64,000 nt of DNA from Xiphophorus maculatus (taxonomy: Eukaryota; Chordata; Actinopteri; Cyprinodontiformes; Poeciliidae): contig NC_036456.1 in assembly GCF_002775205.1 (NCBI RefSeq), forward strand, positions 23,184,968 to 23,248,967, in the 5' to 3' direction. Below are positions 25,033 to 46,746 of the stretch, piece by piece. A model generated the notes under the pieces. The model did no database searches. It saw nothing but the letters and a program-made list of their open reading frames with translations, and had not been told where the DNA came from. The position numbers and the translations under genes are program-made. Positions within the stretch are counted from its first letter, which is position 1; every line of letters begins with the position of its first letter.

Positions 25033-27510
25033 ATGTCAGCAGCTGGTCTCTGTCAGTTTTTCTTCAGCCGTTCAGGATTTTGGACTTTTATCTTCGTCGT
25101 GGTTTTGGTCTGGACGCCTGTTAAAGGTAAACGCTGCTGCTTTTCTCCTCAACTTACGTTAAACTGTTACTAAGCAACCAGGAAACGTTTTCATTCAAAC
25201 TGAGTGAAACGGTTGCTGAACTCATTCATTGTTTCTCTAAACAGCGAACTATGAAAGACTCGGCTGCTTTCAGACGGTCTGACTGTCTCTGTTTTATATT
25301 TAAGTTACTTATTTGTGTCTTTGTTTTCCTCTGACCTCATTTCTACTGTTTATACTTATTTTATTAAATATAAAACTCACGTACAGACTTCGTCTAAAGT
25401 ACTACATCTACCGTCATGCACTGCTGCTTTCTGACAGTTCAAATTGTTTCACATTGGTTGACTAAATTAGTCTTCAAATCTGAATCTAAATTCATAAGCT
25501 TTGTTGAAGAGATTAAAATTATTTTTTTTAAACCGCTATTCATTGATATTAAAACGTATCCGCCGGTTGTCCCATAATAATTGTTCTGACTTTATTTGGA
25601 AGAGATGCTTTAAATTATTTAATGTTTACTCTTGATATTCACGGTGAGTCAGCATGAGCCCACCACCACAATGACTCATTAACTCACATGACCGAAATGT
25701 CACATTAATCAACATGAACATAGAGCTTAGTCATAATGAAACGTGGGCGTGACATCGTGTCTTAAATAAAAATAATATTTTTTTTATACCAGGTTCAATA
25801 TCATTTTAATTTTTCTTGCTCTGTTCTCTTTTTTTTTTAAAAAGAAATCACAGAAAAATATTTTCAGCAAGTGGCTTTTATTTCAATCATCCCTGATGAG
25901 TTGCACCTCAATTTATTTAAAGCTGGGCTTTAAATACATTTTAAAGCCTTCCCTAGAGGGGAAGCTAATGGAGAACAGAATTAATTTAATGATTTAAATG
26001 AAAAAATCACTAAAATAATCAGTTGTTGATTCAGGTGAGAGCAAATGGAGCATAACGATTCATCACTGCTTATCTCTCCCTGACAGGGATCAGAAATCAC
26101 CCAGTAATATTTTCCTTTTTCCACTTGTTTGCTTTCGTTTGACTAAAATGATAAATGGGACATTCTGGCAGCTGCTTATATTACATCTGGAAAGGGAGAT
26201 TTTTGGATGTTTAAAGGGAAACTTGTGAGATGTAGCCTTAGATAAAGTCCTCCAATACAAACCGATTCATGTAAATGTATTAGATAAAAGAATGCTGGCA
26301 TATTTTTTATTTTTATTTTTGTTTCATTATTGTACAGTTTTTATTTCTAACATTCAATTGTGTTTGAAATGTAAATATATTTTCTGGAGGAAACCTGGTA
26401 GAAACCCAACCCTCCACAGATGGATTGTGTTTCTGTCTGTGGGTTTTTCCACTCTTGGGGAAACTACCCTGAAGTTTCAGGGTTTTACTTTAGTTTCATA
26501 ATCATATTTATGAAACCTAATAAAATCTTCCCTGTGCTTCCAGGTGGCCTCCATCTGATTGGTTCGTCTCAGCCAATCGTAGCTGCTCCTGGAGATGACG
26601 TCGTCCTCCCGTGTCGGGTGGATCCCGAGTGGGACGCCGTGGGGAAGACGGTGGAGTGGTCCCGACCGGACCTGAGGCCGTCCGGCCCTCAGAAGCGTGT
26701 GGAGTACGTGTTCGTGTACCGCTTCAGGAAGACGGACCGAGACATGATGATGGACACGTACATCCAGAGGACGTCTCTGTCCCAGGACGGCCTGAGGCGA
26801 GGAGACGTGTCTCTGACCATCAGGAACGTCAGCCTGCAGGACCACGGCAGGTTCCGATGTTTCATCCCCCGCCTCAGGATAGAAGCAGAACTTCTGCTTG
26901 TTGTTGGTGAGAAACGGGTCCAAACTGCAGGTTCTGATCCGGATCTGTTGGGGTTTTTCTAATCAGTCCTGTTATTGTTGCTGTTTCAGATCCAGACTTT
27001 GTTTCAACAACGACAACAGAGTCGGTTCATCCCAGAAACCTCATCAGTCCGACGCCACAGGAGGAAACCGTGACGAACGGTGAGTCAGCGGGTCCAAACT
27101 CTGATGCTTCAGATTCTGAGAATAAACCAAGTTTTACTTTGTTTTGAGGTTTTCTGACATTTTTCTTCTTTTATTTCAGGTCGTCGGTCCAGGATGTTTC
27201 TTGTTTTTCCCGTTTGTCTCTTCATCATTTCTCTGAGTTCACTTTTCATCTTCAGCTTGAAAAATTGTTCCAAAACCACAAAGTAAGTCAGAAATAATTA
27301 AAACACATCAGCGCTTCTTTCTCATAGTCAGATGATTAATCAAAAAATAAACCTGTTACAGATTTCAACAGAACCCCCTGAGAGCCTCTGCCTTGCAGTT
27401 TTGTTGCTTTGCTCAAGAGCAGACCTGTGTTGATGTGGAGAAAAACTCCATCCAGTCTCTCATTGCGACTCCTGATCAACTGCAGCGTCATGGAAACTGT
27501 GGAGGCTGAG
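25033..27510 (+). CDS. Ig1: V-set butyrophilin/MOG-like receptor
   Basis: Exons by splice site and phase: leader 25033-25126 (hydrophobic, GFWTFIFVVVLVWTPVKG), V-set domain 26544-26906, stalk 26990-27079 and transmembrane 27180-27282. The first three junctions are phase 1. The V domain has C55 and C137, an EWSRPDL strand and SLTIRNVSLQDHGRFRC; the usual DxGxYxC tyrosine is Phe. A Thr-rich stalk (FVSTTTTESVH) and a helix (MFLVFPVCLFIISLSSLFIF) follow. This is a single-V B7/butyrophilin-like surface protein; the ligand is unknown. The tail is unsure. The TM exon ends in phase 2, and an acceptor at 27360-27361 (KFQQNPLRAS..., stop about 27510) or at 27396-27397 (NFVALLKSRP..., open to 27543) would both work. 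A LINE relic begins about 300 bp downstream. Confidence 0.8.
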
Positions 27511-27573
27511 TCGATCAGTCTGAGGCGTATTGATGAAACCAGGTGAGTCTGACTCATCAGTATCAGATGTCAG

Positions 27574-27642
27574 ACCATGATGTCATATGATGGTAGACCA
27601 TGATGTCATATGATGTCACACCATGATGTCATATGATGGTAG
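27574..27642. repeat. 23-bp tandem repeat, three copies
   Basis: Unit ACCATGATGTCATATGATGG plus three bases (TAG), repeated three times; the middle copy ends TCAC in place of GTAG. Confidence 0.9.
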
Positions 27643-27819
27643 AGGCAGCAGGTGATGCTCTAATAAAACGCTCTTTGTTTGACTCTGGACTTTTTCTTTT
27701 GTTCTCCTGAAGGTTCTCCATAAAGCAGCTCTCAGACTGCAGGAATCCTACAAACTTTCAGATAAACATGAGGAAATGTTCTGAATTGATCCAACAAGGA
27801 GAAGCTCGTCTGTTGGCTG

Positions 27820-28690
27820 AACTGTGTCTGTGCAGAGCAGCTCTGGGATTCTGCAGAACCTCTTCAACCATATCCTGAGCCAAGAAAAGGCTCCACTGTT
27901 CTGGAAGACATCCTGTCTGGTTCCAGTTCCAAAGAAAACTCAACCACCACAGACCTGCTGCCCTGACATCCCACAGCATGGAGGTTCTGGAGAGACTCCT
28001 GTTGGCCCACCTGAGTAAGCAGACAAGCTCATATCAAGACCCTGTGCAGTTTGCTTATCGCCATGGAAATGGAGGTTGCCATCATACACCTGCTTCAACA
28101 AACTTTGTGTCATCCAGACAAAGTGAGGATCGTGTTCTCTGATTTTTCCAGTCCATTTAAGACGATTCAGTCTGAGCTGCTCTGTGAGAAACTCCAGAAG
28201 ATACAAGTGGATCACCTGGATCTACCTGACGGACAGACAGACCACCGTTTGTGAGACTAAAGGACTTTGTGTCTAACCAGGTGGTCAGCAACATATTAGC
28301 ACCACAGGGCTCTGTGCTCTCACCATTCCTTTTCACTCTGTACACTTCAGACTTCCAGCACAAGTCCAACATCTACAGAAATACTCAGATGAGTCTGAGT
28401 TGTTGGGTGAATCAGAGATGGACAGGAGGCTGGAGGTGATCATGCAAAGAAGAATTCTTGATAAAATCAAGAAAATGATGGACAATCCTGACCATCCTCT
28501 TCATGAAACTGTCTTGGGAAGGTAGAGTATCTTCAGTCAGAGGCTTCTTTAGATTCAGTGCCGTACAGACTGCTACAGAAGATCTTTCCATCTGCAATAA
28601 TTGAAGAATTAACGAGCTACAACATTTAACTTTCCTTTGGGATTGATAAAGTATTTTTGAATCTCAATTTTTTAGGATTTTAACTTATTG
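27820..28690 (+). pseudogene. CR1/L2-type LINE reverse transcriptase, frameshifted relic with 3' tail
   Basis: Broken frames give LFNHILSQEKAPLFWKTSCL with VPVPKK, then QDPVQFAYRHG, KVRIVFSDFSSPFKTIQSEL, and APQGSVLSPFLFTLYTSDF. In this order they are conserved reverse-transcriptase blocks of fish LINEs. Frame changes occur between them and the FADD box is missing. The 3' end (CCTTTGGGATTGATAAAGTA at about 28636) is the usual tail of this retrotransposon group. The element is 5' truncated and dead. Confidence 0.85.
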
Positions 28691-30669
28691 TACTTCTGTT
28701 TAACATCACCATGTATGATCTGGTATCATCTTTCATTTTAATGTTTTTCATTTATTTTGGACTCTGCTGTTTAAACACATGTTGCATCTTTTAAACATGA
28801 AGCTCAAACATTTGTTAAAGATCTGTAGACCAGATCAAGCTGTGAAACGTTAGGAAATATTTTAAATGTGTGTGGAAAAACAAACAGTGATATAGAACTA
28901 TTTTTCATTAATGCACCAACACTGTATTTACACTAATTTTGTTATCTGTGTCTTAATGTTACACTAAACAGTAAATCAAATCCTCAATGTGAAAAGATAA
29001 AAGTCTGAGTTGTTTTCCTTGTAGTTGACCTGCTGTGGTTACATGATGGACTGACATTTATTTTCCAGTCACTTCCTGGAGACGTTTTAGAGAAATGCTG
29101 TTAAACTCTGGAGATTTTAATCCTGCTGGATTATATGAATTTTTTTAAGCTGTAATTTATTTTGCCACTTAGACACTTAAAGCTAAATTGGGACTAAATG
29201 ATTCTCAGTTTTAGCTGATTAAAACCTTATTAAGCTAATAAATTAAACATAAAGCTGTAAATGTTTCTGACTTGAATATTTATTTTTTTCTATATTTTGT
29301 AATAAAGTGAACTCTGAAGTACCGTGTTTCAGATTTCTTTAAATATATTTGCGTTTTCTTCTGTCGCTCTGAATTGGCGCCTCTGATTTTAAATAGAGGT
29401 GACCTCTGACCTCTGATCAGAACATAAACATGTTTCTTTGCTGTGATCCAAACGTCCATGAAAGATTTCATGATCTACAGTTTTCATGGCTTCCTGAAGG
29501 TTCCACTTGGAGTTAAAGGTCTGGACTTTAACTAGGCCATCCAAACTGAGAACTTTTTCTTGTCTACCTGAATAAACTTTTGCTTCTTTTTCCTTTGAAA
29601 TCCAATGAATCAGAATGTTTTCTGGAAACTTACTGTGGTTTTAATTCTGGTGAACTTTGAACCCCCCTCCAGTTCTCTCCTTTGTCTCACGTCAGATCAA
29701 ACCTTCAGGCGACGGGTAGAAACAGATCCCAGTAGATCAGTTATCTGCCGGGAATCACCTGAGACAACAACAGGCCTTCTCATGTTCAGTCAAATCCTGA
29801 TGAGTTTCAGCTCCAGGAAATTAAACCGTTTCTTTTACTTTCTGGTTCTAAAATAAAACCCAAAGGGGAAATCCAATCGAAGTGGAAAATCTTAGTTTTT
29901 ATGGAAATCAGCGCCGTTATGACAAATTAAAACCAAGAATAACAAAGAAATTGGTTGTGAATTTCCAAAACATCCTGAAGGTGTAAAATTTTCAGACCAA
30001 GTTATTATAATAAATGAGTTATTGTCTGACTAAAGTTTTATTGGGATTAAATGAGCTGTCAGAATTTATTCTGTAATCTTTAATCAACTTTCAGTCTAAG
30101 GCTGTTGGGAAATCTTAATAACTGATTTCCTCATAAAAGTTAATAAATTTTAACTTCCAAACATATTAATAGTGTTGAGATAATGAATGTTATCACATTT
30201 ATAATGTCAGTTTCACATTATGTGTGTCCAGAAAACCCCTGAATTTCTAGATCCCTTTCAAAACAAATTGACTAATAATTAAATACTTGCATCATTAATA
30301 GTTTTACTTTCTCTGTTTATTTTTATAGTCAGAATCTCCCTGGACGTCTAACAGAAACCATAAACAAGCTGTTGGGTTACGGTTGTGAATAACATCATAA
30401 ATATAATACTGATTTATTGTTTTCCTCATTTGTACGTTTTGTTCGTAAATGCAGCTCTAAACCAAAAGCACTGATTTGTTTTAATATTGGCTTTGGCTGC
30501 TTAGTTTGAAGCAAATTCTGTTTAAATGTCAGATAAAGCAACTTTTGCTGCCATCTAGTGAACTTTCTCTTTCACTTCTCCTATCATGGATGATCTGCTT
30601 TCCCTTCACTTTCCCTCTCACCAAAGTTTCATTTAGACATCCAGGACTGGACTTGACTGCATTTTGTTA

Positions 30670-30671
<2 letters not shown>
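28691..30671. other. Intergenic, between the LINE relic and the CA microsatellite
   Basis: No gene is recognised. A frame at 29605-29856 has no known motif. Positions 29516-29580 carry a Tc1-related fragment, listed separately. Confidence 0.4.
29516..29580 (-). mobile_element. Fragment of a Tc1-like dispersed repeat
   Basis: GGTCTGGACTTTAACTAGGC is the reverse complement of a word also seen at 62633-62656 (GGTCTAGTCAAAGTCCAGAC). A similar fragment is at 51249-51285. In the forward sense it reads W.SQSPDL, the conserved transposase motif preceding NPIE in Tc1-like elements. Only a short scrap remains. Confidence 0.4.
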
Positions 30672-30705
<34 letters not shown>

Positions 30706-30734
30706 ACAGACACACACGCACACACACACACACA
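30672..30734. repeat. (CA)n microsatellite
   Basis: About 63 bases of CA with a few interruptions (CCCACAG, CG). Confidence 0.95.
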
Positions 30735-30960
30735 TGCTTGCGTGGCTATCTTTGTAGGGACTTTCCATTGACTTCCATTCATTTCTACAGCCTAACCCTT
30801 ATCCTAACCCTAACCTTTCCCATTACTCGTATATTCCCGACTCTAAACTTTATGAAAAACTGATTTAAATCTTACCTCTAAACTTATCTCCTAAACCTAA
30901 ACAAAAGGTTCCACCATGTTATGATCAGGCGTTTGTCCCAGTAACACCCATAGGTCTTCA
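30735..30960. repeat. Dispersed teleost repeat following the CA run
   Basis: TGTAGGGACTTTCCATTGAC, then TTCCATTCATTTCTACAGCC and CCTAACCC-rich text, forms a repeat known to me from many fish genomes next to CA runs. Its class is uncertain. Confidence 0.5.
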
Positions 30961-31081
30961 GAATGTTAGATTTATATCGTAAATTTTATATTTAGGCCTT
31001 TTCTGGCATATTTACCGACATTCTGGAGACCTCTATCAGTTTGAATATGCCAGTCGTCCCATAGATAATATTATTTTACAA

Positions 31082-31294
31082 GTGAAACACTCCATTCTGT
31101 CACTTGTGGATAAGCAAACCCGTCTCCAGATACTTTTCACTGATTGTAGCTCAGCCTTTGTATCGGCCAGCTGGCTGATAAACACGGAGAGTCAGACACA
31201 CAGACCTTTCATGGTGAACCTGATGAAAACAGACCCAGTAGAGCTTCTGCAGCTGGTGAATCATGCTGTCTGGAAAACTTCACAAAGGAGATGA
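31082..31294 (+). pseudogene. Short LINE reverse-transcriptase relic
   Basis: The frame contains SLVDKQTRLQILFTDCSSAF, matching the 'LD....RxLFxDFSSAF' block of fish LINE reverse transcriptases. It carries no other RT block, so it is a fragment. Other explanations are possible because only one motif is seen. Confidence 0.5.
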
Positions 31295-32545
31295 CATCAT
31301 GAGGAAAGAGCATTGTGTGGAAGAACTGACAGGCATCCAGACATCAGCCAGGAAGTTACAGAGGATTATTAACTGAATAAGAAAACAAGGCCCAGTTTGT
31401 CATAAAGCTTCGCACAATTAGCACAACACCTCAGCCGAAGCTCTGAAAACACGTCGTCTCATTTGGTTTGAGTCAAGTCAAAACTATTTTATTTATATCG
31501 TACTTTTTAACAAGGCACTTCCAAGAGCTTTAATCATAATAACATCATAGAGTCAATATGAACCAATCAATAAACTGAATGTTCCTATGAAGGTTTGTTC
31601 ATAATTCCTTGTAGTTACAGGTTCCCCAAGAGCGCAGCCCGCCGCCCCACCCAGCAGCAGGTCACCATTTCAGAGCTTTACCACCACTGAGCCGCCGCAC
31701 TTTTAATCAAGCCAGAAATATGATATGATCTGGGATGATAAGGAGATTCTGGCTGCAGCTGTTTGAACAGGAAACAGGCGGAGCGCCTGTTCAGTCTGTT
31801 TACAGCAACAAACTGCAAGCTGTTAGCCGCAGAAGCTAAAGACTGCGACATTAAAGTTGATAACTGAAAGCCTGTTTCGTTCTCTGCAACTCTATTCGAT
31901 ATAGTGCCTGGACTTTAATAATAGCTTAGGGTGATGATTTTAAGTTATATTTCTGTCTAAGTTACTATTTTTATTAAAGTAATTATGTCAAATATTAATA
32001 GATAACACTTTCTACACTTCAACAGCACAGCAGGAAGGAGGTCCAGTCCAAAGTGACAGAGTTAAGTTTGGGTTCTTGTTCACAGATAATGAAAACACAG
32101 AGCAGGAGATCAATGTGTGGACTGAAGCGCCGTTAGCAGTGATGTACTGATCTGTCTTAGTGAAGAAATGTAACGTTAAATCATCATTTTTACCTTCATC
32201 TGTGGTCAAACACATGTAGATGCTTTGAGTAGTGACCAAAAGAATGAGATCATGAACATTTGGTTCCAAACAACCAGTTCAAACACAAAGCATGAATGAA
32301 GATGAAGTATTATTTTGAGAAAATAATGTTTATTGAATAATTTTCTGATTTAGAAATCAATGACCTTATGTGAAAATGATTCTTTATAACTATTTTGGGA
32401 TACCAATGTTGCGGCGTAAAAGGACAAATATAAACTAGGTTGGGATGTTGCAACAATCTATTTTAAGTCTTACTGTAAAAACCTTAAATAGCGACACTAG
32501 TTTTTATTAGCTCCAGTGGTTTGCTAAGGCTGACCACACACAGGT
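31295..32545. other. Intergenic with degraded repeats
   Basis: Around 31475-31560 is a decayed 'CTATTTTATTTATAT...' motif common in fish dispersed repeats. A short palindrome (ACAGGCGGAGCGCCTGT, about 31776-31792) is present. No gene is recognised. Confidence 0.35.
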
Positions 32546-32547
32546 AA

Positions 32548-32790
32548 ATAGACTGAACATGTATGGAGCTTTTCCAATCATTTTGCCACTCAAAACGCTT
32601 TACACTGGAGTCACATTTACCCACAAACACACACACATTTATACACCAATCAATAGGTAACTTGGGGTTCATTCAGTGCCTTGCCCAGGGGCACATCGAC
32701 ACAAGACAGGAGGAAGCTGAAATCAAACCTACAACCTTCCAGTTACAAGACGACTGCTCAACCCCACAGACAAATGGACATAGGGATCTA
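32548..32790 (-). mobile_element. tRNA-derived SINE, reverse orientation
   Basis: On the minus strand the order is TTGAGCAGTCGTCTTGTAAC, a B-box-like AGGTTTGATTTC (32719-32730 on plus), GTGCCCCTGGGCAAGGCACT, a GT-rich middle, and GTAAAGCGTTTTGAGTGGC. This order is that of a widespread teleost tRNA-related SINE. It is diverged and has no long A tail. Confidence 0.65.
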
Positions 32791-33087
32791 TATTTAGCAT
32801 CAATAGTTACCTTAGTTTAGCACAAGCAACAATTATTTAATTAGCTGATATTTTATTGGCTAAATCACACATAAGTCTGTTATTTTTTGTTTGTGAATAA
32901 AATCAAGAGTCTAAACCAACCAAAACAGCTAAAAAGTTAAAGCTCTTCTCTTTTTTTGGTTCTGTAACGGAGTCATTATCTGATCTCTGTTGTAACTCTC
33001 AGTAATTCTCCACATCCTGGAAAAACAAGCAGGTTTAGGCAGGTCTAAGAAAAACCTTACAGCTCTTCCTGGGAACGGAGGTGTGAC

Positions 33088-33099
33088 GTTTTCCCTTTC
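33088..33099 (-). promoter_or_regulatory. ISRE-like site upstream of TRIM2
   Basis: On the minus strand this reads GAAAGGGAAAAC, matching the GAAANNGAAA core of the interferon-stimulated response element. It is about 85-96 bases upstream of the TRIM2 start. Confidence 0.6.
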
Positions 33100-33143
33100 G
33101 CTGTATCCTGTAAATACGTCTCTGTTCCCTCCTCCTCAGACGA

Positions 33144-33155
33144 GAAATTGAAACT
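33144..33155 (+). promoter_or_regulatory. Perfect ISRE immediately upstream of TRIM2
   Basis: GAAATTGAAACT matches the ISRE consensus GAAANNGAAACT at every fixed base. It lies 29-40 bases before the TRIM2 ATG, so it may fall in the 5' UTR or the core promoter. Confidence 0.65.
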
Positions 33156-33183
33156 GATCCAGTCATTGTTACTGAGAGCTGAA

Positions 33184-34623
33184 ATGGAGAACAGAGGACT
33201 TCAGTTAGACCAAAGTAACTTCTCCTGTTCGATCTGTTTGGATCTATTGAAGGATCCGGTGACTATTCCCTGTGGACACAGTTACTGTATGGACTGTATT
33301 AAAACACACTGGGATGAAGAAGATCAGAGGAAAATCCACAGCTGCCCTCAGTGCAGGAAAGAGTTCATACCAAGGCCTGAACTGGAGAAGAACTTCATGT
33401 TTGCTGCTTTAGTGGAGGATCTGAAGAAGACTGGACTCCAAGCTGACCACTGCGCTCGTCATGATGACAGGATGAAGATCTTCTGCACTATGGATGAACA
33501 TAAAGACCATGAAACAGTCCCAGCTGCAGCAGAAAGAGATGAGAAGCAGAAGAAGCTCCAGGAGAGTCGACAACAAATCCATCAGAGAATCCAGGACCAA
33601 GAGAAAGATGTGAAGCTGCTTCAACAGGAGGTGGAGGCCATCAATGTCTCTGCTGATAAAGCAGTGGAGGACAGTGAGAAGATCTTCACTGAGATGATCT
33701 GTCTCCTCCAGAAAAGAAGCTCTGAGGTGAAGCAGCAGATCAGATCCCAGCAGGAAACTGAAGTGAGTCGAGTCAAAGATGTTCAGGAGAAGCTGGAGCA
33801 GGAGATCACTGAGCTGAAGAGGAAAGACGCTGAGCTGGAGCAGCTCTCACACACAGAGGATCACAACCAGTTTCTCCTCAACTACCCCTCACTGCCAGCA
33901 CTCAGTGAGTCTACACACTCATCCAGCATCAACATCCGTCCTCTGAGACACTTTGAGGACGTGACAGCAGCTGTGTCAGAGCTCAGAGACATAATGCAGG
34001 ACATCCTGAGAGAAACATGGACAAACATAGAACTGAAGGTCACTAATGTGGATGTTTTACTGGCAGAACCAAAGACCAGAGATGGACTCTTACATCATTC
34101 AAAAGAGATCACTCTGGATCCAAACACAGCAAACTGGAATCTGTTTCTATCTGAGGGGAACCAAAAAGTAATAAGGGTGATGCAGCAACAGTCTTATCCT
34201 GATCATCCAGACAGATTCACTGATTATAAGCAGGTCCTGAGCAGGGAGAGTCTGACTGGACGTTGTTACTGGGAGGTGGAGTGGACTGGGAGAGGAGTTG
34301 GAGTAGCAGTTTCATACAAGAGCATCAGAAGATCAGAAGGGTTTGGATTCAATGACAAATCTTGGTCTTTATATTGCACCAAAGATGGTAACACATTTTT
34401 TCTTGATGACATTGAAACTCCAGTACCAGGTCCAGTTTCCTCCAGAATAGGAGTGTACCTGGACCACAGAGCAGGTATTCTGTCTTTCTACAGCGTCTCT
34501 GAAACCATGACTCTCCTCCACAGAGTCCAGACCACATTCACTCAGCCTCTGTATGTTGGGATCTGTCTTTATAATGGATCCTCTGCTGAGCTGATTAAAC
34601 CTGAACAGCCATTGGTGGCCTGA
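33184..34623 (+). CDS. TRIM E3-ligase-like protein 2 (RING, remnant B-box 2, coiled coil, PRY-SPRY)
   Basis: Single coding exon of 479 codons. The ATG at 33184 gives MENRGLQLDQSNFSCSICLD, aligning with the other two TRIMs; the frame is open upstream but has no ATG. The RING is complete (C15, C18, C30, H32, C35, C38, C54, C57). The B-box-1 module of TRIM1/3 is absent. B-box 2 is reduced to C90, H93, C101, H106 and H109 (DHCARHDDRMKIFC, DEHKDH), missing the CxxC pair, so zinc binding there is doubtful. The coiled coil (about 119-240) is almost the same as in TRIM1 and TRIM3; PRY-SPRY spans about 300-479 and differs in its loops. Two ISREs upstream suggest interferon induction, so an antiviral E3-ligase-like effector is inferred. 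Confidence 0.93.
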   Translation: MENRGLQLDQSNFSCSICLDLLKDPVTIPCGHSYCMDCIKTHWDEEDQRKIHSCPQCRKEFIPRPELEKNFMFAALVEDLKKTGLQADHCARHDDRMKIFCTMDEHKDHETVPAAAERDEKQKKLQESRQQIHQRIQDQEKDVKLLQQEVEAINVSADKAVEDSEKIFTEMICLLQKRSSEVKQQIRSQQETEVSRVKDVQEKLEQEITELKRKDAELEQLSHTEDHNQFLLNYPSLPALSESTHSSSINIRPLRHFEDVTAAVSELRDIMQDILRETWTNIELKVTNVDVLLAEPKTRDGLLHHSKEITLDPNTANWNLFLSEGNQKVIRVMQQQSYPDHPDRFTDYKQVLSRESLTGRCYWEVEWTGRGVGVAVSYKSIRRSEGFGFNDKSWSLYCTKDGNTFFLDDIETPVPGPVSSRIGVYLDHRAGILSFYSVSETMTLLHRVQTTFTQPLYVGICLYNGSSAELIKPEQPLVA

Positions 34624-35588: not shown

Positions 35589-37544
35589 CAGGGCCGTGCA
35601 GAGACCTTTGGAGGGGCGGGGGCTCAAAGTTAAAAAAGGGCCCCATTGAACAAAAACTCCGTACAACAACACAGCAACAACCCATATTAACCAAGAATCT
35701 AACTGGATCCTACTGGATCATCGCCATCATGCAGGAAATGCAAAGCAAATCTAGTCTCTATTTTCCCCAACAGGTAAAAAGTTTCTGTTTCTGCTGCTGA
35801 CAGTCCTGGAGGGCTGAGCTGATCTGAGACTGTAGCTGTTAAACAGACCAGAGGAGAGAAGGTCAAAGGTCATGAAGTTATGAAATAAGCTGCTGCCATT
35901 TTACTAATGAAGCCCTAATAATATCTATTTAACCTCTAGAACAACCTGGCTGCAGACTGATTTATAGATCAGAAACTCAAAGGGGTTAAAACTATATAAT
36001 AGTTTGATGTTAAACCTCTAGATCTAGAATTATTAGACTGGGATATCAAGGCAAAGAAAACTCAGTACCTGCTGGTAGGGGCCATTCAGGGGCCTCCAGA
36101 CACTCAAGGGCCCCTATAAATGGTGTAATTGTAACACAGACCATAGATCTAAACCTGTAGCATCATTTATATAGAATGTTATTCATTTTTTTTATGCATT
36201 CAGCTGAGAAAAATAAATAGTACATTTAGGATTTAATTAGGACGTTTACTTTGTAAAAGTTTAAAGAATCATCTTGATAGTTTGATTGTTGTGTTACCAT
36301 GGCTACAATATGGTGTAATCTTTGTGTTTGAATTGGGTTTGTTCACAAATACATCACAGCCAATAACCAATAATCAGTGATTGATTTTAAACTGGGCCAA
36401 TAAACCTGGTCTCCCTCTCACAGATTCACCTGATCGACATTTAAACATGTTAGTGATGCTGAGGTTCTTAGTAGGACGGGGGGTTCTGGCTAAGGCCCCA
36501 TATTACCTTGGGCCGGCCCTGGAGGAACAGCTGCTGCGATGCTCATCTCTGGAATCTACCTGGAATCTACCTGGAACCTACCTGGAATCTACCTGGAATC
36601 TACCTGGAACCTACCTGGAATCTACCTGGAATCTACCTGGAACCTACCTGGAACCTACCTGGAATCTACCTGGAATCCCCCGGTGGCCCCTGTCAGTCCC
36701 CCCGATGCTTTGGAGACATTTTGGTTCATGTCATTGTGGCATGTTTGGCTTTTTGCTGCGGTTCTGATTATTGCTGCAATATTTTCTCTGATGTTTATTT
36801 TGTGACTCTAATTGGGCCGAATCTTCCTTTAACACTTGAGGTTCTGCAGTAACTTCTGTTTACAGCCCAGAACCTCCAGCGGCTTGAACCCGCCTGGTCG
36901 AAACGTTAAGGAGAAGCAGAGCGAACAGAGAGCAGGCGGTACCGGGTGGTACCAGATGGTACCGGGGCTTTGAGCTGCGTTGCGACTCGCGGTGACAGTC
37001 TCAGTGTCTTATATCAGGTTGTCTGATATAAAGACAGATATTCTTTCTATCTGTCGGTGGTTCCGACCCAGACTGCCTGTAGTGAACCGGGCTTTTAGCA
37101 GAATGATGAAGTTAAAGTCAGAAGTTTCTCTGCAGCATTTCTGAGTTTAGTGGTGAGGCGGGTTTTGTCCCGCTATTGCAGGACGATTATAAAAATATAA
37201 ATAGAAACAGTTTTTCTAACGTCAACATCAGACCTACGTTTTTATTCACAAACCAGTTAATGAAAATATTCTTGCCCATAATTAGATAGATAGAGGAACA
37301 GATCCTCCTCCTCCTCACCATGGAGTCTGAACAACATGGAGGCTCTGAGAGTCATTATTAGCCTGAGGGCAGCCAGGCTAGTTTATTTTACTACATTATT
37401 ATATTTAGAGAAATATTATTGCTGAGGGGAACAAGCAGGCCTTCTGACATACAGATTAAAAATAATAATAAAATAAAATAATAAAAATAAATTGTTTTGA
37501 AAAAAAAACCCCAAAAACTCAAAAAGGGCCCCTGCACGTGCCTG
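35589..37544. mobile_element. Probable degenerate or nested hAT-like element(s) with GGGCCCC ends
   Basis: The left boundary CAGGGCCGTGCAGAGACC resembles the reverse complement of the right boundary near 37544 (CAGGCACGTGCAGGGGCCC). Another inverted end, CAGGGCCGGCCC, lies at 36510-36521, so elements may be nested. Scattered GGGCCCC words occur inside (35638, 36110, 37526). I found no clean 8-bp target duplication, so the limits and class are tentative. No transposase frame is present. Confidence 0.4.
36551..36671 (+). repeat. 11-bp minisatellite, eleven copies
   Basis: Unit GGAATCTACCT with a C/T variant at base 6 (GGAACCTACCT), eleven exact-length copies plus a partial. Because 11 is not a multiple of 3 and the unit has no stop in any frame, all three plus frames stay open and encode the same 11-residue period (ESTWNLPGIYL), producing misleading open frames at 36381-36852. 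Confidence 0.95.
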
Positions 37545-37990
37545 GCTTAAAACTAAATATTTTTAAAAAAGTTTTTTAACATTTCTTCCTTAAACATTAT
37601 TGTTCATGTTTTCATTGTGAATTCTGTCCTTTAGATGTAAACTCGTTATTTTTAATAATAATAAATATGTAGTAGTAAATCGTTTTGATCTAAAAATTAA
37701 GATTAGGGAATTTCCCATTTCCCTATACCTTTAATAATTTTTGATTGGACAAATTATCTAAACTAGATATTAAATTGTGATTAAAACTGAAATGAATTAG
37801 CTGGTATTAAGATAAGTTGAAAGGTAAATTAGATAAATTAGGTCAATTTAAAGCGGATTTGAATTTGCAATTATTGTTGGTTTTTGCCTCTGAATTAAAA
37901 CATTAGAACCGAAATTAACAGAAATATGTAGAATCAAAATAGTTTTTAATGTCAACAGTTCTTACCGAATATGAGACGCTTTAGTTGCCA
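37545..37990. other. AT-rich spacer upstream of the Ig2 leader
   Basis: No gene or clear repeat is seen. Confidence 0.4.
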
Positions 37991-37994
37991 CTTA

Positions 37995-38090
37995 CAATAT
38001 GGCGGCCGCGCTGACGTAATTTCCGGGCACGTGTGAGATGCAGGGAGCTGCAGTCATCAGTTTTCTACCTCTCAGCTTCCTCTAGTCTCG
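37995..38090 (+). promoter_or_regulatory. Ig2 promoter, conserved with Ig3
   Basis: A GC-richer island contains ATGGCGGC (YY1-like), TGACGTAA (CRE/ATF-like) and TTTCCGGG (ETS-like), followed by the CAGTCATCAGTTTTCTA initiator region. Nearly the same text is found at 44130-44240 before Ig3, where the YY1-like word is altered to AAGGCGGC. Function is inferred from motif and conservation only. Confidence 0.5.
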
Positions 38091-38185
38091 CCTGGACATG
38101 TTTCTGGTCGCTGATGTTTTCATCGTGGATTTTTACCTTCTGCTTTTACTGGACTTTGGTTCCCGGTGAGTTTCTGCTGCTGCTC

Positions 38186-38206
38186 AATAATAATAATAAT
38201 AATAAA
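38186..38206. repeat. (AAT)n microsatellite in Ig2 intron 1
   Basis: Short ATA run just after the leader donor; a longer AAT run is at the same place in Ig3 (44343-44379). Confidence 0.85.
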
Positions 38207-38519
38207 AACTGATAAAGACATTTTAGCTAATCAGGTTTCATAACACTGAGTTTAGGGAAATAAAGTTTACATTTGTTTTTAAGTGGTTTTTAAGTCTTAA
38301 TTCATCAAGTCCAACCCTTATTTTTTATGCAGGTGAATGAAATTAAAGGAGTAACATTACTTCAGCAGCATTCAAAATTTCCAAAATAACCATAAACAGG
38401 TGAAAGCTTAAATCTCTTCTCCACTTTAAGCATTTTATAAGTAATCCATTTTCTGATTTTTGTTCTCCACATAGAAACTTGGGAAAACAAGCAGGCACAG
38501 TGGAAGACATTCCTCACAG

Positions 38520-38717
38520 TTTTTCCCGAGGTCTGATAACTCCTCCTAGGCTGCATCCTGCCAACACGTCTCTGTTCCCTCCTCTTCTGATCTGGAAGTT
38601 TCCTGCTGAGGCTAACAGCTTCCAGGCCTCATTCACTGCAGCAACACGTGATGTTTAGATCAGAGCTGCTGTTGTTCTACAGAGGAGGAAACTACGCAGT
38701 TGTTACTGTGAGCTAAA
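38520..38717 (+). promoter_or_regulatory. TRIM3 proximal promoter and 5' UTR
   Basis: Nearly the same as the region upstream of TRIM1 read on the other strand (CTCCTCCTAGGCTGCATCCT, AGCTTCCAGGCCTCATTCAC, ACAGAGGAGGAAACTA). No perfect ISRE is present. Confidence 0.55.
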
Positions 38718-40337
38718 ATGGCGCAGAGAATAGTTCAACTAGACCAAAGTAACTTTTCTTGTTCAATTTGTTTGGATCTACTGAAGGATCCGGTGACTAT
38801 TCCCTGTGGACACAGTTACTGTATGAACTGTATTAAAAGCCACTGGGATGAAGAAGATCAGAGGAGAAACCACAGCTGCCCTCAGTGCAGGAAAGAGTTC
38901 ATACCAAGACCTGATCTGGAGAAAAACGTCATGTTAGCTGATTTAGTGGAGGATCTGGAGAAGACTGGACTCCAAGCTGCTGCAGCTGATCACTGCTATG
39001 CTGGACCTGAAGATGTGACCTGTGATGTCTGCACTGGGAGGAAGATGAAAGCTGTCAAGACCTGCCTGGTTTGTCTGATTTCTTACTGTGAGAATCATCT
39101 TCAGCCTCATTATGAATCTCCTGCTTTTAAAAAGCACAAGCTGGTGAATCCCACCAAAACTCTCATGGAAAGCATCTGCTCTTGTCATGATGAGGTGATG
39201 AAGATGTTGATGGATGGTTATGAAACAATCTCTGCAGAAGCAGAAAGGGCTGAGAAGCAGAAGGAGCTCCAGGAGAGTCAACAACAAATCCATCAGAGAA
39301 TCCAGGACCAAGAGAAAGATGTGAAGCTGCTTCAACAGGAGGTGGAGGCCATCAATGTCTCTGCTGATAAAGCAGTGGAGGACAGTGAGAAGATCTTCAC
39401 TGAGATGATCCGTCTCCTCCGGGAAAGAAGCTCTGATGTGAAGCAGCAGATCAGATCCCAGCAGGAAACTGAAGTGAGTCGAGTCAAAGATGTTCAGGAG
39501 AAGCTGGAGCAGGAGATCACTGAGCTGAAGAGGAAAGACGCTGAGCTGGAGCAGCTCTCACACACAGAGGATCACAACCAGTTTCTCCTCAACTACCCCT
39601 CACTGCCAGCACTCAGTGAGTCTACACACTCATCCAGCATCAACATCCGTCCTCTGAGACACTTTGAAGACGTGACAGCAGCTGTGTCAGAGCTCACAGA
39701 CAAACTACAGGACATCCTGAGAGACTCATGGAGAAACGTTGAACTGGCAATCACTGAAGTGGATGTTCTACTGTCAGAACCAAAGACCAGAGATGAATTC
39801 TTAAAATATTCACAAGAAATCACTCTGGATCCAAACACAGCAAACATATTTCTGTTATTATCTGAGCAGAACAGAAAAGTAACATTAATGAACCGGCAAC
39901 AAGATTATCCAGATCATCCTGACAGATTCACTGGTTGTTATCAAGTCCTGAGTAGAGAGACTCTGACTGGACGTTGTTACTGGGAGGTGGAGAGGACTGG
40001 GAGTGGAGTTTATGTAGCCATTTCTTACAAGAACATCAACAGAAAAGAAGCCTTTGGGTTCAATGACAGATCTTGGTCTTTATATGGTTACACAGACAGT
40101 TACACATTTTATCACAACAACACTGAAACTCCAGTACCAGGTCCAGTTTCCTCCAGAATAGGAGTGTACCTGGATCACAGAGCAGGTGTTCTGTGTTTCT
40201 ACAGCGTCTCTGAAACCATGACTCTCCTCCACAGAGTCCAGACCAGATTCACTCAGCCTCTATATGCTGGGGTTGGTCTTTATTTCTCACTTTCCTGTCC
40301 TGGTGACTCCTCTGCTGAGTTCATTAAGTTGAAATAG
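38718..40337 (+). CDS. TRIM E3-ligase-like protein 3 (RING, B-box 1, coiled coil, PRY-SPRY)
   Basis: Single coding exon of 539 codons starting MAQRIVQLDQSNFSCSICLD. The RING ligands (C15 to C57) are complete and the B-box-1-type module (about 102-140) is intact. B-box 2 is eroded in the same way as in TRIM1 (ICSCHDEVMKMLMDGYET). A long coiled coil and a full PRY-SPRY (LDPNTA, GRCYWEVE, GVYLDHRAG, TQPLYAG, EFIKLK) complete it. It is closest to TRIM1 in the N-terminal two thirds, while the SPRY loops differ (YKNINRKEAFGFNDRSWSLY). It lies within intron 1 of the broken Ig2 gene on the same strand with its own duplicated promoter, so it is probably transcribed independently. An E3-ligase role in innate immunity is inferred from the family. 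Confidence 0.93.
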   Translation: MAQRIVQLDQSNFSCSICLDLLKDPVTIPCGHSYCMNCIKSHWDEEDQRRNHSCPQCRKEFIPRPDLEKNVMLADLVEDLEKTGLQAAAADHCYAGPEDVTCDVCTGRKMKAVKTCLVCLISYCENHLQPHYESPAFKKHKLVNPTKTLMESICSCHDEVMKMLMDGYETISAEAERAEKQKELQESQQQIHQRIQDQEKDVKLLQQEVEAINVSADKAVEDSEKIFTEMIRLLRERSSDVKQQIRSQQETEVSRVKDVQEKLEQEITELKRKDAELEQLSHTEDHNQFLLNYPSLPALSESTHSSSINIRPLRHFEDVTAAVSELTDKLQDILRDSWRNVELAITEVDVLLSEPKTRDEFLKYSQEITLDPNTANIFLLLSEQNRKVTLMNRQQDYPDHPDRFTGCYQVLSRETLTGRCYWEVERTGSGVYVAISYKNINRKEAFGFNDRSWSLYGYTDSYTFYHNNTETPVPGPVSSRIGVYLDHRAGVLCFYSVSETMTLLHRVQTRFTQPLYAGVGLYFSLSCPGDSSAEFIKLK

Positions 40338-42145
40338 TCAGCAGTGATCTCAGGTCCAGTTGGTTAAAATGTGTATTTTAGTCCCAGTTCCTTTCGTCTC
40401 CATCATTGTTGCTGAGAGATCAGCTGTCTTAGTGGAGCTTCTTTGTCATCTTTATTGTTTTTATTAATGTTTGATGTGTGATCAGAATCTCTAATTTCTT
40501 AATTTTTTTCATATTTAGCTGCATCATTATTATCACATTTATCACTTCTGATGTCACCAGAACCTGCTTGAGTTTCTGATTATTTTTAAAGCACATTAAC
40601 TAGGAGTGTTAGTGTTAGTTAATGTAACTAACATCATCATCATTAGTATTTTTTTCTGCTCTGCTTTCAGTTTATTCTGATTGAACCTCCAGAATCTCCC
40701 TGCACTTCTTACTGTCATGTTTTTAGTCTGAATGTGTAAGAAACTGGAAAGTGTGGATTGTTACAAGTATCATAAACATGATATTGATTTACTGTTTTCC
40801 TCATTTTTTCCAGTTGTTTTGTTTGTAAATGCAGACAAAATGCTCTAATTTATTTTAATATCTACTTTAGAACTCCATATATGTCATATTATTTTGCATA
40901 AAACATTTTTATGGTAGATTTTTCACTTTGCTGTTATGGTGAAAAGTCCATTAATTTTAGCATAAACCTGTCAATAAATGATCAGAGGAAAAATTGACCG
41001 ATTTATATGTCTGAACAATGGATCGGTGCATTTCTACTTTTTATATTTTAATGTAAACATCTACAAGATTCAAGAATGGACAAATAAAATATAGAGATTA
41101 CAGTGGAGTAGATTACTGACTGCTAGTTATTAAAGATTAAACTGTTCAAATCTGATTTCTGGCTCTCAAAGTCAAATCTAAAATCCTCCAACATGGCTGA
41201 AGTCCAACAGATGATGCATAAAAGTTTTTAATGTGTCAGAAAGTATGGCAAGCCGTTTTAACATAAATTCAGTTTTACCGCCCTTACATTCCAGATATCT
41301 CAAATTGTTTTATGACGTTTTAGTGATTTAAGATATCTCTAATTACAGTCTGACTAGTCGAAACTCATCTCTCCTTGATTCCTGAAATCCATGGCAACAA
41401 TGAGTTTTATTTTGTGTGTTTTTTTTTACAATGGGAATTAGCAGGTTAGCATTAGCATCAACTCCATTGTCTCTCTTTTTAACCTTGTGAATTAAAAATG
41501 TAGCGTAATCCACCTAATGAAGGATGAAACTTTAAAGATGAACATTAAAGTTTCAATGCAATAAATTCTTAGTTTCATTGCAATAGCTGTACACACAAAG
41601 CATAACGTGAGCATAATGTAAAAACGTTTACAACATAAAATAAAGGTACAATCTTAAAAACAACTTTAGTTTAGGCATATGATCAAACAAATGCAGTTTT
41701 TAAAAAAAACATAAACTTATTTACACAAAAAACATACATTGTGCTTCTATTAAAGATTCTGTTAGTAAGAGATTTTAACTCAGTTACAAATTCTTCAGTC
41801 TGTTGTTGTCAAGCCGCTGTTCGTAAACATACAACGCAGAAAATGTCACTTCAAAATAAAAGCATCAAACCGGAAGTTAATCATAGATAAAACTAATTAA
41901 AGGCGATAGACATCAAAAAGTGATACAAATAAATAAAGAACTTATTTCAGATCTAATTTGTACTTTTTATTCTTTTATTGTCTTCGCTTTCTTTTGTATG
42001 TAATCTGGACTCTGAGTTTGTAATAAAATCTATCTATTTACAAAAACACTTACACTCCACACTCTTCAGAAAAACCACATATTGTTTTGCTTCTGCTTCT
42101 TGACAAAATTCCCCAAAAACATGTAGAAATTGACCTTCAAAAATT
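40338..42145 (+). other. TRIM3 3' flank within Ig2 intron 1
   Basis: AT-rich sequence with the inverted third copy of the TRIM-flanking module at about 41164-41245 and a LINE-like tail at 42023-42040. No other exon is recognised, in particular no lost part of the Ig2 V exon. Confidence 0.45.
41164..41245 (-). repeat. TRIM-flanking duplicated module, partial copy 3
   Basis: On the minus strand: ACTTTCTGACACATTAAAAA, then a TCATC word, then CTTCAGCCATGTTGGAGGAT, as at 6645-6700. Relative to its TRIM gene it lies downstream in the same orientation as the 2706-2965 copy does for TRIM1. Confidence 0.5.
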
Positions 42146-42858
42146 GCGTGTGGAGTACGTGTTCGTGTACCGCTTCAGGAAAACGGACCGAGACATGATG
42201 ATGGACACGTACATCCAGAGGACGTCTCTGTCCCAGGACGGCCTGAGGCGAGGAGACGTGTCTCTGACCATCAGGAACGTCAGCCTGCAGGACCACGGCA
42301 GGTTCCGATGTTTCATCCCACGCCTCAGGATAGAAGCAGAACTTCTGCTTGTTGTTGGTGAGGAACGGGTCCAAACTGCAGGTTCTGATCCGGATCTGTT
42401 GGGGTTTTTTCTAATCAGTCCTGTTATTGTTGCTGTTTCAGATCCTAACTTTGTTTCAACGACGACAACAGAGTCGGTTCATCCCAGAAACCTCATCACT
42501 CCGACGCCACAGCAGGAAACCGTGAGGAACGGTGAGTCAGCAGGTCCAAAACGTTTCAGAATCACTTGTGAACCTGAATGTTCCGTTTTATTGCTTATAA
42601 TTTCTCTCATTTCAGATCGTCGCTCCAGGCTGCTGCGCTGTTTGCCACTTCATCTTTTCTTCTTCATTGTTTGCCTGAATTCAATTTCTGTCTTTCGCTT
42701 TAAAACGTTGAGCAAAAACAAGTAAGTTAAAAATAATACCTGGAACACATTCATGTGTTTTTTCTTCATCACATGTTTTAGTTCGTAATGTTTTCTTTGC
42801 TTCTCGCAGGTTTTCTGACGCTGCATCTCTGCAGAGTCCGACTCCAGCCAGCGGCTGA

Positions 42859-44244
42859 AGACGTGAATCCTGATCCGTCAGAGTCTGAATCTGCTGCTCT
42901 GCTGCTCATCTCTTCCTCAACTCTTCTTCTCCCTGGTTTTCCTGCAGTTTCTTCTGTTGACGCTGCAGGAATCTCCGCCTAGATTTGCCAACATGACGAG
43001 GACTCCAACAGATTTACGTCTGGAGAAGAAACGAGAACCGATCAAAACTCCTAGAAGTCTTCTTGAAGCGCTTCAGGTTTTGTTCAACCTCAGGATGAAA
43101 TAGATCAGGACAAAACGTCGACATCTGTACTTAATTTGAAGTGTTATTGAAAACAACCTGTTAAACTTAACAAGGTTCTTTTTATGGTAGCACTGGTTTA
43201 CTGTTGTGATAATATGTTTTATTTTTTTTGTTGTTTTTTTACTTTACTCGACTATTTAAACCACAGGATAGTTTTTCCAATCTGAATTAATGTGCCTTAA
43301 ACATTCACATCAGCAGGTCTGGAGATCAGATCTGCATTAGATGCTTTGTATATTTTACTTAATGAATGTTTCATTTTACCAGAAAATGATGCTTATTTAT
43401 AGAAAAGTAGAAACAGAAAGTTGAGTTTCTGTTCAGGTTTTTAATCCTGAAGAATATTTAACTGTTTAAACACTTAAAGTTCTTTAAAAAAAATAAAAAA
43501 TATATGTTACATTTCAATTGACAAGAGCAGCTAATAACTCCCTCTGTTCAATATGAACATTAAAGATTTTCATGTCATGAGGAAAACAATTTTATTTAAT
43601 TCTTGGATTATCCACATGGGGGCGCTAGTTAGTTATACATTTTTATTACATATTTTTGTCGATGTGAAAAATAAAGAGAGCAAAAACTCCTCTCACTCCA
43701 AATGGTTTCATATTGTTATATTTTAGTGCTGTTTTGTTTATTCTCTATAAATAATTCATGGTTGTATCTCACCTGAATTTAACTTCACAGGAATGTTTTA
43801 TTCTCATACAAAATGTAGAAAAATATTCATTAAATTGTTTTATTGACACTTGCTATATTTACAACCTGCCTGGGTATTTTTTTTTTCTGTTAATAAAAAG
43901 GTTTTTGTGTAATAAATTGTGGTTCATTTTCTCTCAGCATGACTGAGAAAATCCAGCCAGAGATCAATCTGATTGAAACTTTATTAAAAATATTTAACTT
44001 TTAGATTTAACTTTCGACCTCTTTAAAAAAAACTGTAGCTTTAAAACTAAACAAAAAACTTATAAATGTGTTTTAACATTTCTTGCTTTAAATGTTAAGC
44101 TTCATGCTTTCAGTAATTTGATTACAGTGAATTGCCACTCACAATAAGGCGGCCGCGGTGACGTAATTTCCGGGCACATGTGAGTTGCTGGGAGCAACAG
44201 TCATCAGTTTTCTAACGCTCAGGTTCCTCTAGTCTCGCCTGGAC
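42859..44244. other. Ig2 3' region and upstream region of Ig3
   Basis: Probably the Ig2 3' UTR in the first few hundred bases, then AT-rich spacer. The Ig3 promoter (TGACGTAA at 44159-44166, TTTCCGGG) is at about 44130-44240. No further gene is seen; a frame at 43758-43946 has no motif. Confidence 0.4.
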
Positions 44245-44260
44245 ATGCTCCTGGTCGCTG

Positions 44261-44343
44261 ATGTTTTCATCGTGGATTTTTACCTTCTGCTTTTACTGGA
44301 CTTTGGTTCGGGGTGAGTTTCTGCTGCTGCTCAGTCTGAGCTC

Positions 44344-44379
<36 letters not shown>

Positions 44380-46548
44380 TGTTTCTGCGGTGATAAACAA
44401 ACAAAAAACAGTTTAAATTTGTTTCTAAGTGGAGCTGAATGTAGGATTATGTGTTTTTATAGTTTTATAACTCTTATGTTTTTCACATTAATTGGATTTT
44501 AAAGTTTTATTCAACAGCTTCCATCAGAAGGCTGATGACATATTTCACTGGCTGGTGTAACTTAATCGTGTTTATATGAACCTTTATCATAATGACTTAT
44601 ATTATTGTGATAAAATCCTATCTCACATTTAAGTACTCATGTTAAATACTAATATGTGTTTCATTATTCAAAATCAGTCATTTTAATTTGATTTAAGCAG
44701 TTTTACTTTTACTATGATGATGCCTTTAGGTACTTTACAGAGCAACAATAAACAAAATATTGGGGAGTTCTCCAATATTTTGTTCTCCAATATGTTGACT
44801 TGTCTGTCAGGAAACCACAGACACGCTGAAAACCTCAGAGACATTTTGTGGTTTTTTTGTTGTTGATGTTTTTACTGTGACTGATGATGAGTTACTAGAT
44901 CACAAAAACGTGTTTTTAAATCTGATGTTCTCACACCAATGGTTTGGTGTTGAGTCGTGAATCACATGTGATTCACGACTCAACACCAAAATATATACTC
45001 AGAAAGTACCAGAGTTGTTGTTGCATGACTAAAGCTAGTCATACAAACTACATTATTATTGAAACTTTTATTAGTTCAGTAATTGATTTATTATGACCTT
45101 TTCAACCCCTTATCTTATTAATCATATTAATCAATCAATCCCTCCATTTTCTTGTCATTCTGTTCTTTTTCGCGCTAATGCAGAATTATGAGTCAAAAAT
45201 ATTTAGTTTAGTGAAACTAACTGCAGCCAGCCCTTAAGTGTGACATCACCTGAGAACTATGTATTGTATTGGTGTCATAATAGATGTTGCTGGTATGGAG
45301 ATGATATTGTAGTTCAATTGTGGATACGACTGACCATAACGATGGTTCGGATCAGTTCCTGACTGGCTTACAGGAACTGAGTTGGACCGGGTCATGGAGA
45401 GGAGCTGTTACTCAGCCGTTTGGACCAGACTGTGGTCTCCATGGATTCACTGAGGAGGAATCTGACTGCAGTGACTCAGCCTGAATCATTGATTATCTGG
45501 AGGGGAAGCTTCCAGATTCCACATTCTCTGGAAAAACTGAGTTTACGATTTCACTGTTAATTCAAATCATAAACAGCTGCTTATATTACAAACTTCCTGG
45601 AGGAAATCCAACCTCCGGGTACGTGTCAGTTCACACAGATGGATTGTGTTTCTGTCTGTGGGGTTTTCCACTCTTGGGAAAACTACCCTGAAGTTTGTCA
45701 AATACTGAGAAGTTTCAGGGTTTTACTTTAGTTTCATAATCATATTTATGAAACCTAATTAAGTCTTCCCTGTGCTTCCAGGTGGCCTCCATCTGATTGG
45801 TTCGTCTCAGCCAATCGTAGCTGCTCCTGGAGATGACGTCGTCCTCCCGTGTCGGGTGGATCCCGAGTGGGACGCCGTGGGGAAGACGGTGGAGTGGTCC
45901 CGACCGGACCTGAGGCCGTCCGGCCCTCAGAAGCGTGTGGAGTACGTGTTCGTGTACCGCTTCAAGAAGACGGACCGAGACATGATGATGGACACGTACA
46001 TCCAGAGGACGTCTCTGTCCCAGGACGGCCTGAGGCGAGGAGACGTGTCTCTGACCATCAGGAACGTCAGCCTGCAGGACCACGGCAGGTTCCGATGTTT
46101 CATCCCACGCCTCAGGATAGAAGCAGAACTTCTGCTTGTTGTTGGTGAGAAATGGGTCCAAACTGCAGGTTCTGATCCGGATCTGTTGGGGTTTTTCTAA
46201 TCAGTCCTGTTATTGTTGCTGTTTCAGATCCAAACTTTGTTTCAACAACGACAACAGAGTCGGTTCATCCCAGAAACCTCATCAGTCCGACGCCACAGGA
46301 GGAAACCGTGACGAACGGTGAGTCAGCAGGTCCAAAGCGTCTCAGAATCACTTGTGAACCTGAATGTTTTCAGTTAACTAATTTGGACTTTTTTTGTTTC
46401 TGTTTCAGGTCATTTTACCAGATTCCATCTTTGCCTAATTGTTTTTTCATTCTTCATCATTTGTCTGGGTCTGGTTTCCTTTTGTGTCGCAAGGAAATCC
46501 AAACAAATACAGGAAGTCAAATTTGGACCAGTCTCCATGGAGACATGA
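44261..46548 (+). CDS. Ig3: V-set butyrophilin/MOG-like receptor with unusual tail
   Basis: Four exons in phase 1 give 214 codons: leader 44261-44312, V-set 45782-46144, stalk 46228-46317, transmembrane plus tail 46409-46548. The leader (MFSSWIFTFCFYWTLVRG) is chosen because only this ATG is in phase with the V exon; an ATG 16 bases upstream is out of frame. The V domain has C41 and C123, W56 and DHGRFRC, and differs from Ig1 by one residue (RFKKTD for RFRKTD). The helix is FHLCLIVFSFFIICLGLVSF, then a short tail RKSKQIQEVKFGPVSMET. Unlike Ig1 and Ig2 there is no further splice: the tail reads into a hairpin-rich block. A single-V B7/butyrophilin-like membrane protein; ligand and signalling are unknown, with no ITIM/ITAM. 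Confidence 0.83.
44343..44379. repeat. (AAT)n microsatellite in Ig3 intron 1
   Basis: Twelve or so AAT units just after the leader exon; the longer counterpart of 38186-38206. Confidence 0.9.
44943..44990. repeat. Perfect 48-bp palindrome in Ig3 intron 1
   Basis: The 48 bases equal their own reverse complement with no spacer: the arm TTTGGTGTTGAGTCGTGAAT plus CACA meets its mirror at 44966/44967. No coding or known element explains it. Confidence 0.95.
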
Positions 46549-46746
46549 GGGAATTTGACAGAAGTCAAATTTGACTCAGAAGTCAAATTTGACTCACTTC
46601 CTGTATTTCTTTGGATGAAGTCAAATTTCATAATATATTTTTATGGAGAGAATATATTACTTTCATGCAGAATATATTGAAAGTAATATATTTTCCAAAA
46701 TATATTCCGTCTCCAGGTAAATGTACCTGGAGACGGAATATATTTT
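46498..46746. repeat. Hairpin-rich block at the end of Ig3
   Basis: Three inverted repeats follow one another: 46498-46517 with 46596-46615 (19 of 20 bases pair), 46651-46664 with 46679-46692 (14-bp perfect arms), and 46697-46719 with 46724-46746 (23-bp perfect arms, 4-base spacer). Between them the self-palindromic word GTCAAATTTGAC repeats in tandem. The first arm lies inside the Ig3 reading frame and supplies its C terminus. It may be one or more MITE-like insertions. Confidence 0.8.

Follow-up and report, generated by a model that had tools for sequence, protein, structure and literature searches.

How three neighbouring immunoglobulin (Ig) genes came to carry almost the same V-set domain next to differing transmembrane and tail exons is the question raised by a 64,000-nucleotide stretch of Xiphophorus maculatus DNA (C14:23184968-23248967 of the searched genome of 704.3 Mb in 101 contigs), hereafter the window. 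An initial annotation read these genes, Ig1, Ig2 and Ig3, as paired receptors that present one binding face and deliver different outputs. Comparison with a fourth gene, Ig0, located outside the window on the minus strand about 25 kb left of the Ig1 leader (L013:9380-6570), points to another origin. The sequences suggest, with a probability of roughly 70%, that Ig1 is a mosaic gene produced by segmental exchange among butyrophilin-like genes, in which the leader, transmembrane exon and tail would belong with Ig0, and the V domain and stalk with Ig2 and Ig3.

The near identity of the V domains is confined to a bounded tract. The 363-base V exons of Ig1 and Ig3 differ at two bases (2/364 in the alignment count), as the initial annotation had reported; 26727 G/A exchanges Arg for Lys and 26869 C/A is silent. 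The likeness does continue through the flanking introns and the stalk exon, giving 96% identity between 26415-27098 and 45634-46336 with a 19-base gap in intron 1, and Ig2 and Ig3 are 97% identical between 42146-42582 and 45933-46368. Differences between Ig1 and Ig3 within the tract number 4/129 in intron 1, 1/80 in intron 2, 1/92 in the stalk and 1/18 in early intron 3. The likeness then ends in that intron, also as described: from the end of the V exon to 27098 the genes differ at 3/209 positions, and beyond it at 91/198, including 34/70 in intron 3 and 44/100 in the transmembrane exon. Uniform identity along the whole genes was looked for and is absent, and whole-gene duplication is rejected because identity ends near 27098. 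Coding constraint alone is likewise rejected as the cause of the uniformity because the introns in the tract are about equally alike, differing at 6/227 positions compared with 34/70 in intron 3 beyond the tract (p = 3e-19). The comparison of the V exon with non-coding DNA in the tract (2/364 versus 6/227, p = 0.06) gives at most a weak sign of constraint on V. The GC content at third codon positions of the V tract (0.73 in Ig1, 0.72 in Ig3 and 0.73 in the Ig2 half, with 0.39-0.70 in 15 other V exons) would fit GC-biased conversion, a comparison that is uncontrolled and carries no weight. On the 3′ side the tract has the form expected of gene conversion, high identity bordered by diverged but homologous flanks, and this well-bounded, homogenised segment probably arose by gene conversion or a comparable exchange. 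Of the two causes of uniformity initially proposed, conversion and recent duplication, the first agrees with a local tract in a mosaic Ig1, and the second does not hold for the genes as wholes.

The mosaic structure and its 3′ breakpoint are directly visible when Ig0 is used as an outgroup. In a maximum chi-square test over 117 sites, 36 before and 81 after the breakpoint, the bases of Ig1 match Ig3 before it and Ig0 after it. The maximum, 94.6 at 27087-27104, was reached by 0/5000 shuffles, the largest of which gave 23.2. Ig0 and Ig1 differ at 32/166 positions before the end of the stalk and at 14/206 beyond it (p = 0.0004). Among the informative sites in the four-gene alignment, 25 join Ig0 with Ig1 and lie without exception after the breakpoint, 2 join Ig1 with Ig3 and both precede it, and 1 joins Ig1 with Ig2. 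This is the pattern of mosaic genes formed by exchange between neighbours, as in chicken BG. The likeness of Ig2 and Ig3 outlasts that of Ig1 by about 30 bases, a stretch in which Ig1 resembles Ig0, and this favours Ig1 as the recipient and a gene of Ig2/Ig3 type as the source. The event would have been recent and would have covered about 680 bp, by gene conversion or an equivalent double exchange.

Several observations weigh against this interpretation. Five sites in Ig0, Ig1 and Ig3 are contrary to the two-block pattern, one of Ig0 type before the breakpoint and four of Ig3 type after it. With 2 four-gene informative sites before the breakpoint, the grouping there relies on distances, and the shuffles assume that sites are independent. 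The argument for direction is weakened by changes in the Ig0 stalk, which shows 19/80 differences and a deletion of 12 bases. Beyond the 5′ edge of the tract the similarity consists of a single 17-base match, reached by 3/200 shuffles, and the outgroup is absent on that side. This edge bears on the alternative that a duplicated V-stalk cassette was inserted, rather than an existing one converted. Both edges are sharp and Ig2 begins abruptly in the middle of the V exon, as insertion would predict; however, at the 3′ edge the genes stay in register: homology between Ig1 and Ig2 carries on through intron 3 and across the transmembrane exon, and Ig0 retains the end of V, intron 2 and the stalk at matching places. 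Insertion is accordingly regarded as unlikely.

Table 1. Positions in the window of the Ig1, Ig2 and Ig3 exons, the shared tract and the inverted duplication
Feature	Positions	Strand	Remarks
Inverted duplication, left arm	1..1153		Extends 48 bases left of the window; Ig0 lies further left
Inverted duplication, right arm	23000..24189		Opposite window 1-1153; 96.7% over 1203 positions
Ig1 leader exon (MSAAGLCQFFFSRSGFWTFIFVVVLVWTPVK)	25033..25126	+	Donor GTAAAC; second genomic copy only in Ig0
Putative exchange tract in Ig1	26415..27098	+	Near-identical to 45634-46336
Ig1 V exon	26544..26906	+	Butyrophilin/MOG-like V-set
Ig1 stalk exon	26990..27079	+	
Ig1 transmembrane exon	27180..27282	+	Donor GTAAGT; 4/103 bases differ from Ig0
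Ig1 predicted tail exon	27362..27509	+	Frame also open in Ig0; 4/151 bases differ
Ig2 V exon remnant, 3′ part only	42146..42358	+	2/213 bases differ from Ig1, 2/213 from Ig3
Ig2 stalk exon	42442..42531	+	
Ig2 transmembrane exon	42616..42721	+	Donor GTAAGT; homologous to that of Ig1
Ig2 predicted last exon, unlike that of Ig1	42810..42858	+	
Ig3 tract matching Ig1	45634..46336	+	Match to Ig2 is 45933-46368
Ig3 V exon, whole	45782..46144	+	Acceptor present; no leader found
Ig3 stalk exon	46228..46317	+	
Ig3 transmembrane/tail exon	46409..46548	+	Lacks the donor of Ig1 and Ig2; frame stops at 46548

Of greater interest is the V exchange in Ig0, the inverted partner. Ig0 and Ig1 are 97.6% identical over 252 bases of the leader region, for which the genome search returned two copies, Ig1 and Ig0, and their transmembrane and predicted tail exons are nearly the same (Table 1). 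A query with the stalk and transmembrane exons gave 5 matches in the genome, confined to Ig0-Ig3. The Ig1-type V exon is lost from Ig0 save for its last bases, and a leader-plus-V segment of another type stands there. This V domain matches Pfam V-set (1e-7), with CD276 as the best hit among solved structures (6.5e-8), ahead of partial hits to the polymeric Ig receptor (8.8e-7) and, further down, PD-L1 (6.9e-5). L025, at a distance of 1.1 Mb, contains a copy that is 91% identical over 507 bases. Spliced to the stalk, transmembrane and tail exons of Ig0, the V exon leaves an open frame from either leader. Ig0 and Ig1 are two complete genes with the same ends and different V domains, the reverse of the Ig1/Ig3 pattern. 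In the proposed history Ig0 would, in a separate event, have lost the Ig1-type V and gained a CD276/PD-L1-like leader-plus-V in frame, so that the cluster would swap V domains between gene ends. Both genes may be expressed, and if so, the pair would allow the effect of a V swap on an otherwise constant molecule to be studied directly. A more tentative extension is a germline V-exchange system, in which a single leader/transmembrane/tail frame, existing as an inverted pair, might take varied V domains (butyrophilin-like in Ig1, CD276/PD-L1-like in Ig0), with the leaderless Ig2 and Ig3 as donors, and ligand specificity might shift while the tail stays constant. Since a second inverted duplicate pairs window 15076-15973 with a segment 4576-5479 bases left of the window (96.8% over 905 bases), the inverted arms are more complex than a single block.

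Of the three genes in the window, Ig1 is the only one to combine a leader, an entire V exon, a stalk and a transmembrane exon with its donor. Ig2, initially taken for a receptor like the others, is truncated: its homology starts at 42146, mid V exon and beside unrelated DNA, and it lacks the first cysteine, the acceptor and a leader. A single open frame of 232 codons (42027-42725, plus strand) spans the V remnant, both introns, the stalk and the transmembrane exon of Ig2; it is aided by one extra T in intron 2, has no leader and is probably due to chance. The predicted last exon of Ig2 has no significant match in the DNA downstream of Ig1 or Ig3. In Ig3, the missing donor would fall within the span of a 21-base inverted repeat (46497-46517 / 46596-46616). 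The leader of Ig1 had been described as different, and indeed no significant counterpart occurs upstream of Ig2 (best score reached by 35/200 shuffles) or Ig3 (85/200). That description understated the case, as Ig2 and Ig3 yielded no leader at all: a scan of 27400-45780 gave 0 candidates on the plus strand at the chosen threshold, which a weak leader could escape, and 3 on the minus strand. Ig2 and Ig3 would be 5′-truncated or leaderless copies of the tract, likelier donors or relics than signalling partners.

These gaps could also be accommodated by one transcription unit, in which the leader at 25033 would be joined in some transcripts to the V exon of Ig1 and in others, across 20 kb, to that of Ig3, so that one V would be paired with different transmembrane tails. 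Ig3 retains its V acceptor, the genes share a strand, no nearer leader was found, and every intron checked is in phase 1 where it borders V or stalk. Two same-strand TRIM genes intervene, however (33049-34623 and 38712-40337), and Ig1 and Ig0 each own a full exon set, which leaves such long-range splicing with a decidedly small chance of being correct.

The transmembrane exons offer a further view of how the genes are related. They had been called unrelated, which is rejected for Ig1 and Ig2. For this pair the DNA score over the exon and donor site is 68, compared with a maximum of 30 in 200 shuffles, and the protein score of 57 was reached by 0/1000 shuffles. The exon of Ig3 does stand further apart, its scores being reached by 11/1000 protein and 1/200 DNA shuffles against Ig2 and by 104/1000 and 1/200 against Ig1. 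The exons of Ig1 and Ig2 are clear homologues, and that of Ig3 is more distant. No tyrosine occurs in the three predicted tails (Ig1-Ig3), and hence no immunoreceptor tyrosine-based inhibitory motif (ITIM), immunoreceptor tyrosine-based switch motif (ITSM), YxxL/I or YxxM. Charged residues are absent from the most hydrophobic 21 residues of Ig1 and Ig3; R and H are found there only in Ig2, itself truncated. The genes do not combine an ITIM in one member with a charged transmembrane residue or an immunoreceptor tyrosine-based activation motif in another, and opposed signalling by Ig1 and Ig3 finds no support in the sequence.

These features bear directly on the paired-receptor proposal, by which Ig1, Ig3 and perhaps Ig2 are expressed separately, share one ligand face, carry opposite tails and undergo conversion under selection. 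Its appeal lies in the whole, nearly identical V exons and different tails of Ig1 and Ig3, and in precedents: conversion is described as holding the ectodomains of Siglec-11/Siglec-16 and CD300A/CD300C alike while other parts differ, and in humans a nonfunctional SIGLEC16P allele was the donor that converted SIGLEC11 (PMC5701461, PMC12447643). The likeness to those pairs extends to an ectodomain kept alike beside a divergent remainder. The known pairs, however, have inhibitory and activating outputs, whereas neither a signalling motif nor another complete receptor carrying this V was found here, Ig2 having half a V and Ig3 no detected leader. Together with tyrosine-free predicted tails and a constraint on V that is weak at most, this makes paired receptors highly improbable. 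The same ectodomain with a different tail in raw sequence need not signify paired receptors, and leaders and splice sites should be checked first. An assembly error that duplicated or collapsed copies in a repetitive cluster is very improbable: the region is full of inverted and direct repeats, but the copies differ by substitutions and indels across the tract, their flanks differ and the window has no N.

Mosaic formation of Ig1 by exchange has a close parallel in chicken BG genes, single-V butyrophilin relatives beside TRIM genes, among which hybrids form and V segments are traded (PMC5043582, PMC4046983). All of these elements recur here, and the locus would be a compact example, its outgroup built in, of V exchange in a fish butyrophilin-like cluster near TRIM genes. 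BG genes have long heptad-repeat tails and form a tandem array; the fish genes have short predicted tails, and their two complete members lie in inverted orientation, one of them with a V of another type. The nearby TRIM genes are a lead only toward orthology or shared synteny with BG. Among the titles and abstract openings listed in searches directed at fish, none describes this locus, and a survey mentions butyrophilins for bony fish (PMC12841164).

The Ig1 V with stalk and transmembrane part matches Pfam V-set (2.3e-8), and the best solved-structure matches of the V domain are BTN2A1 (1.5e-12) and MOG (4.6e-12), which places it with butyrophilin/MOG-type V domains. Mammalian butyrophilins have further domains (a C-type Ig domain and often B30.2), whereas the Ig1 model has one V only and lacks the full butyrophilin architecture. 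If expressed, Ig1 is predicted to yield a small type I membrane protein whose outer part is a single butyrophilin-like V on a short stalk and whose tail is free of tyrosine. Butyrophilin-like molecules are usually ligands or co-regulators, butyrophilins and MOG being of ligand type, and Ig1 may have such a role. A six-frame search of the genome, in which 150/166 candidates were scored, found at least 86 V matches, of which at least 51 lie on C14 at 20.4-24.5 Mb. Among the scored candidates three are near-identical copies, all within the window, the next best being 48% identical; the existence of many more such copies is rejected on this count. Other butyrophilin-like V exons occur in L038 (C14:22784000-22788000), L037 (C14:8397000-8401500) and L015:298-645, and L038, by eye, holds an apparent V-C-transmembrane-coil gene with a C-type Ig domain and a coiled coil.

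The surroundings of the Ig genes contain other recognizable elements. Directly behind Ig1, 27821-28440 (plus strand) holds fragments that by eye resemble retrotransposon reverse transcriptase. Long TRIM-type open frames with RING, coiled coil and PRY-SPRY lie at 4002-5678 on the minus strand and at 33049-34623 and 38712-40337 on the plus strand; the three are 87-90% alike in DNA blocks, and the two plus-strand frames were checked with Pfam. In the frame at 33049 the B-box region seems, by eye, to be incomplete. Exons at 18094-20471 (minus strand) resemble by eye an Fc-receptor-like Ig gene, one domain of which matches Pfam Ig_3 at 8.9e-9.

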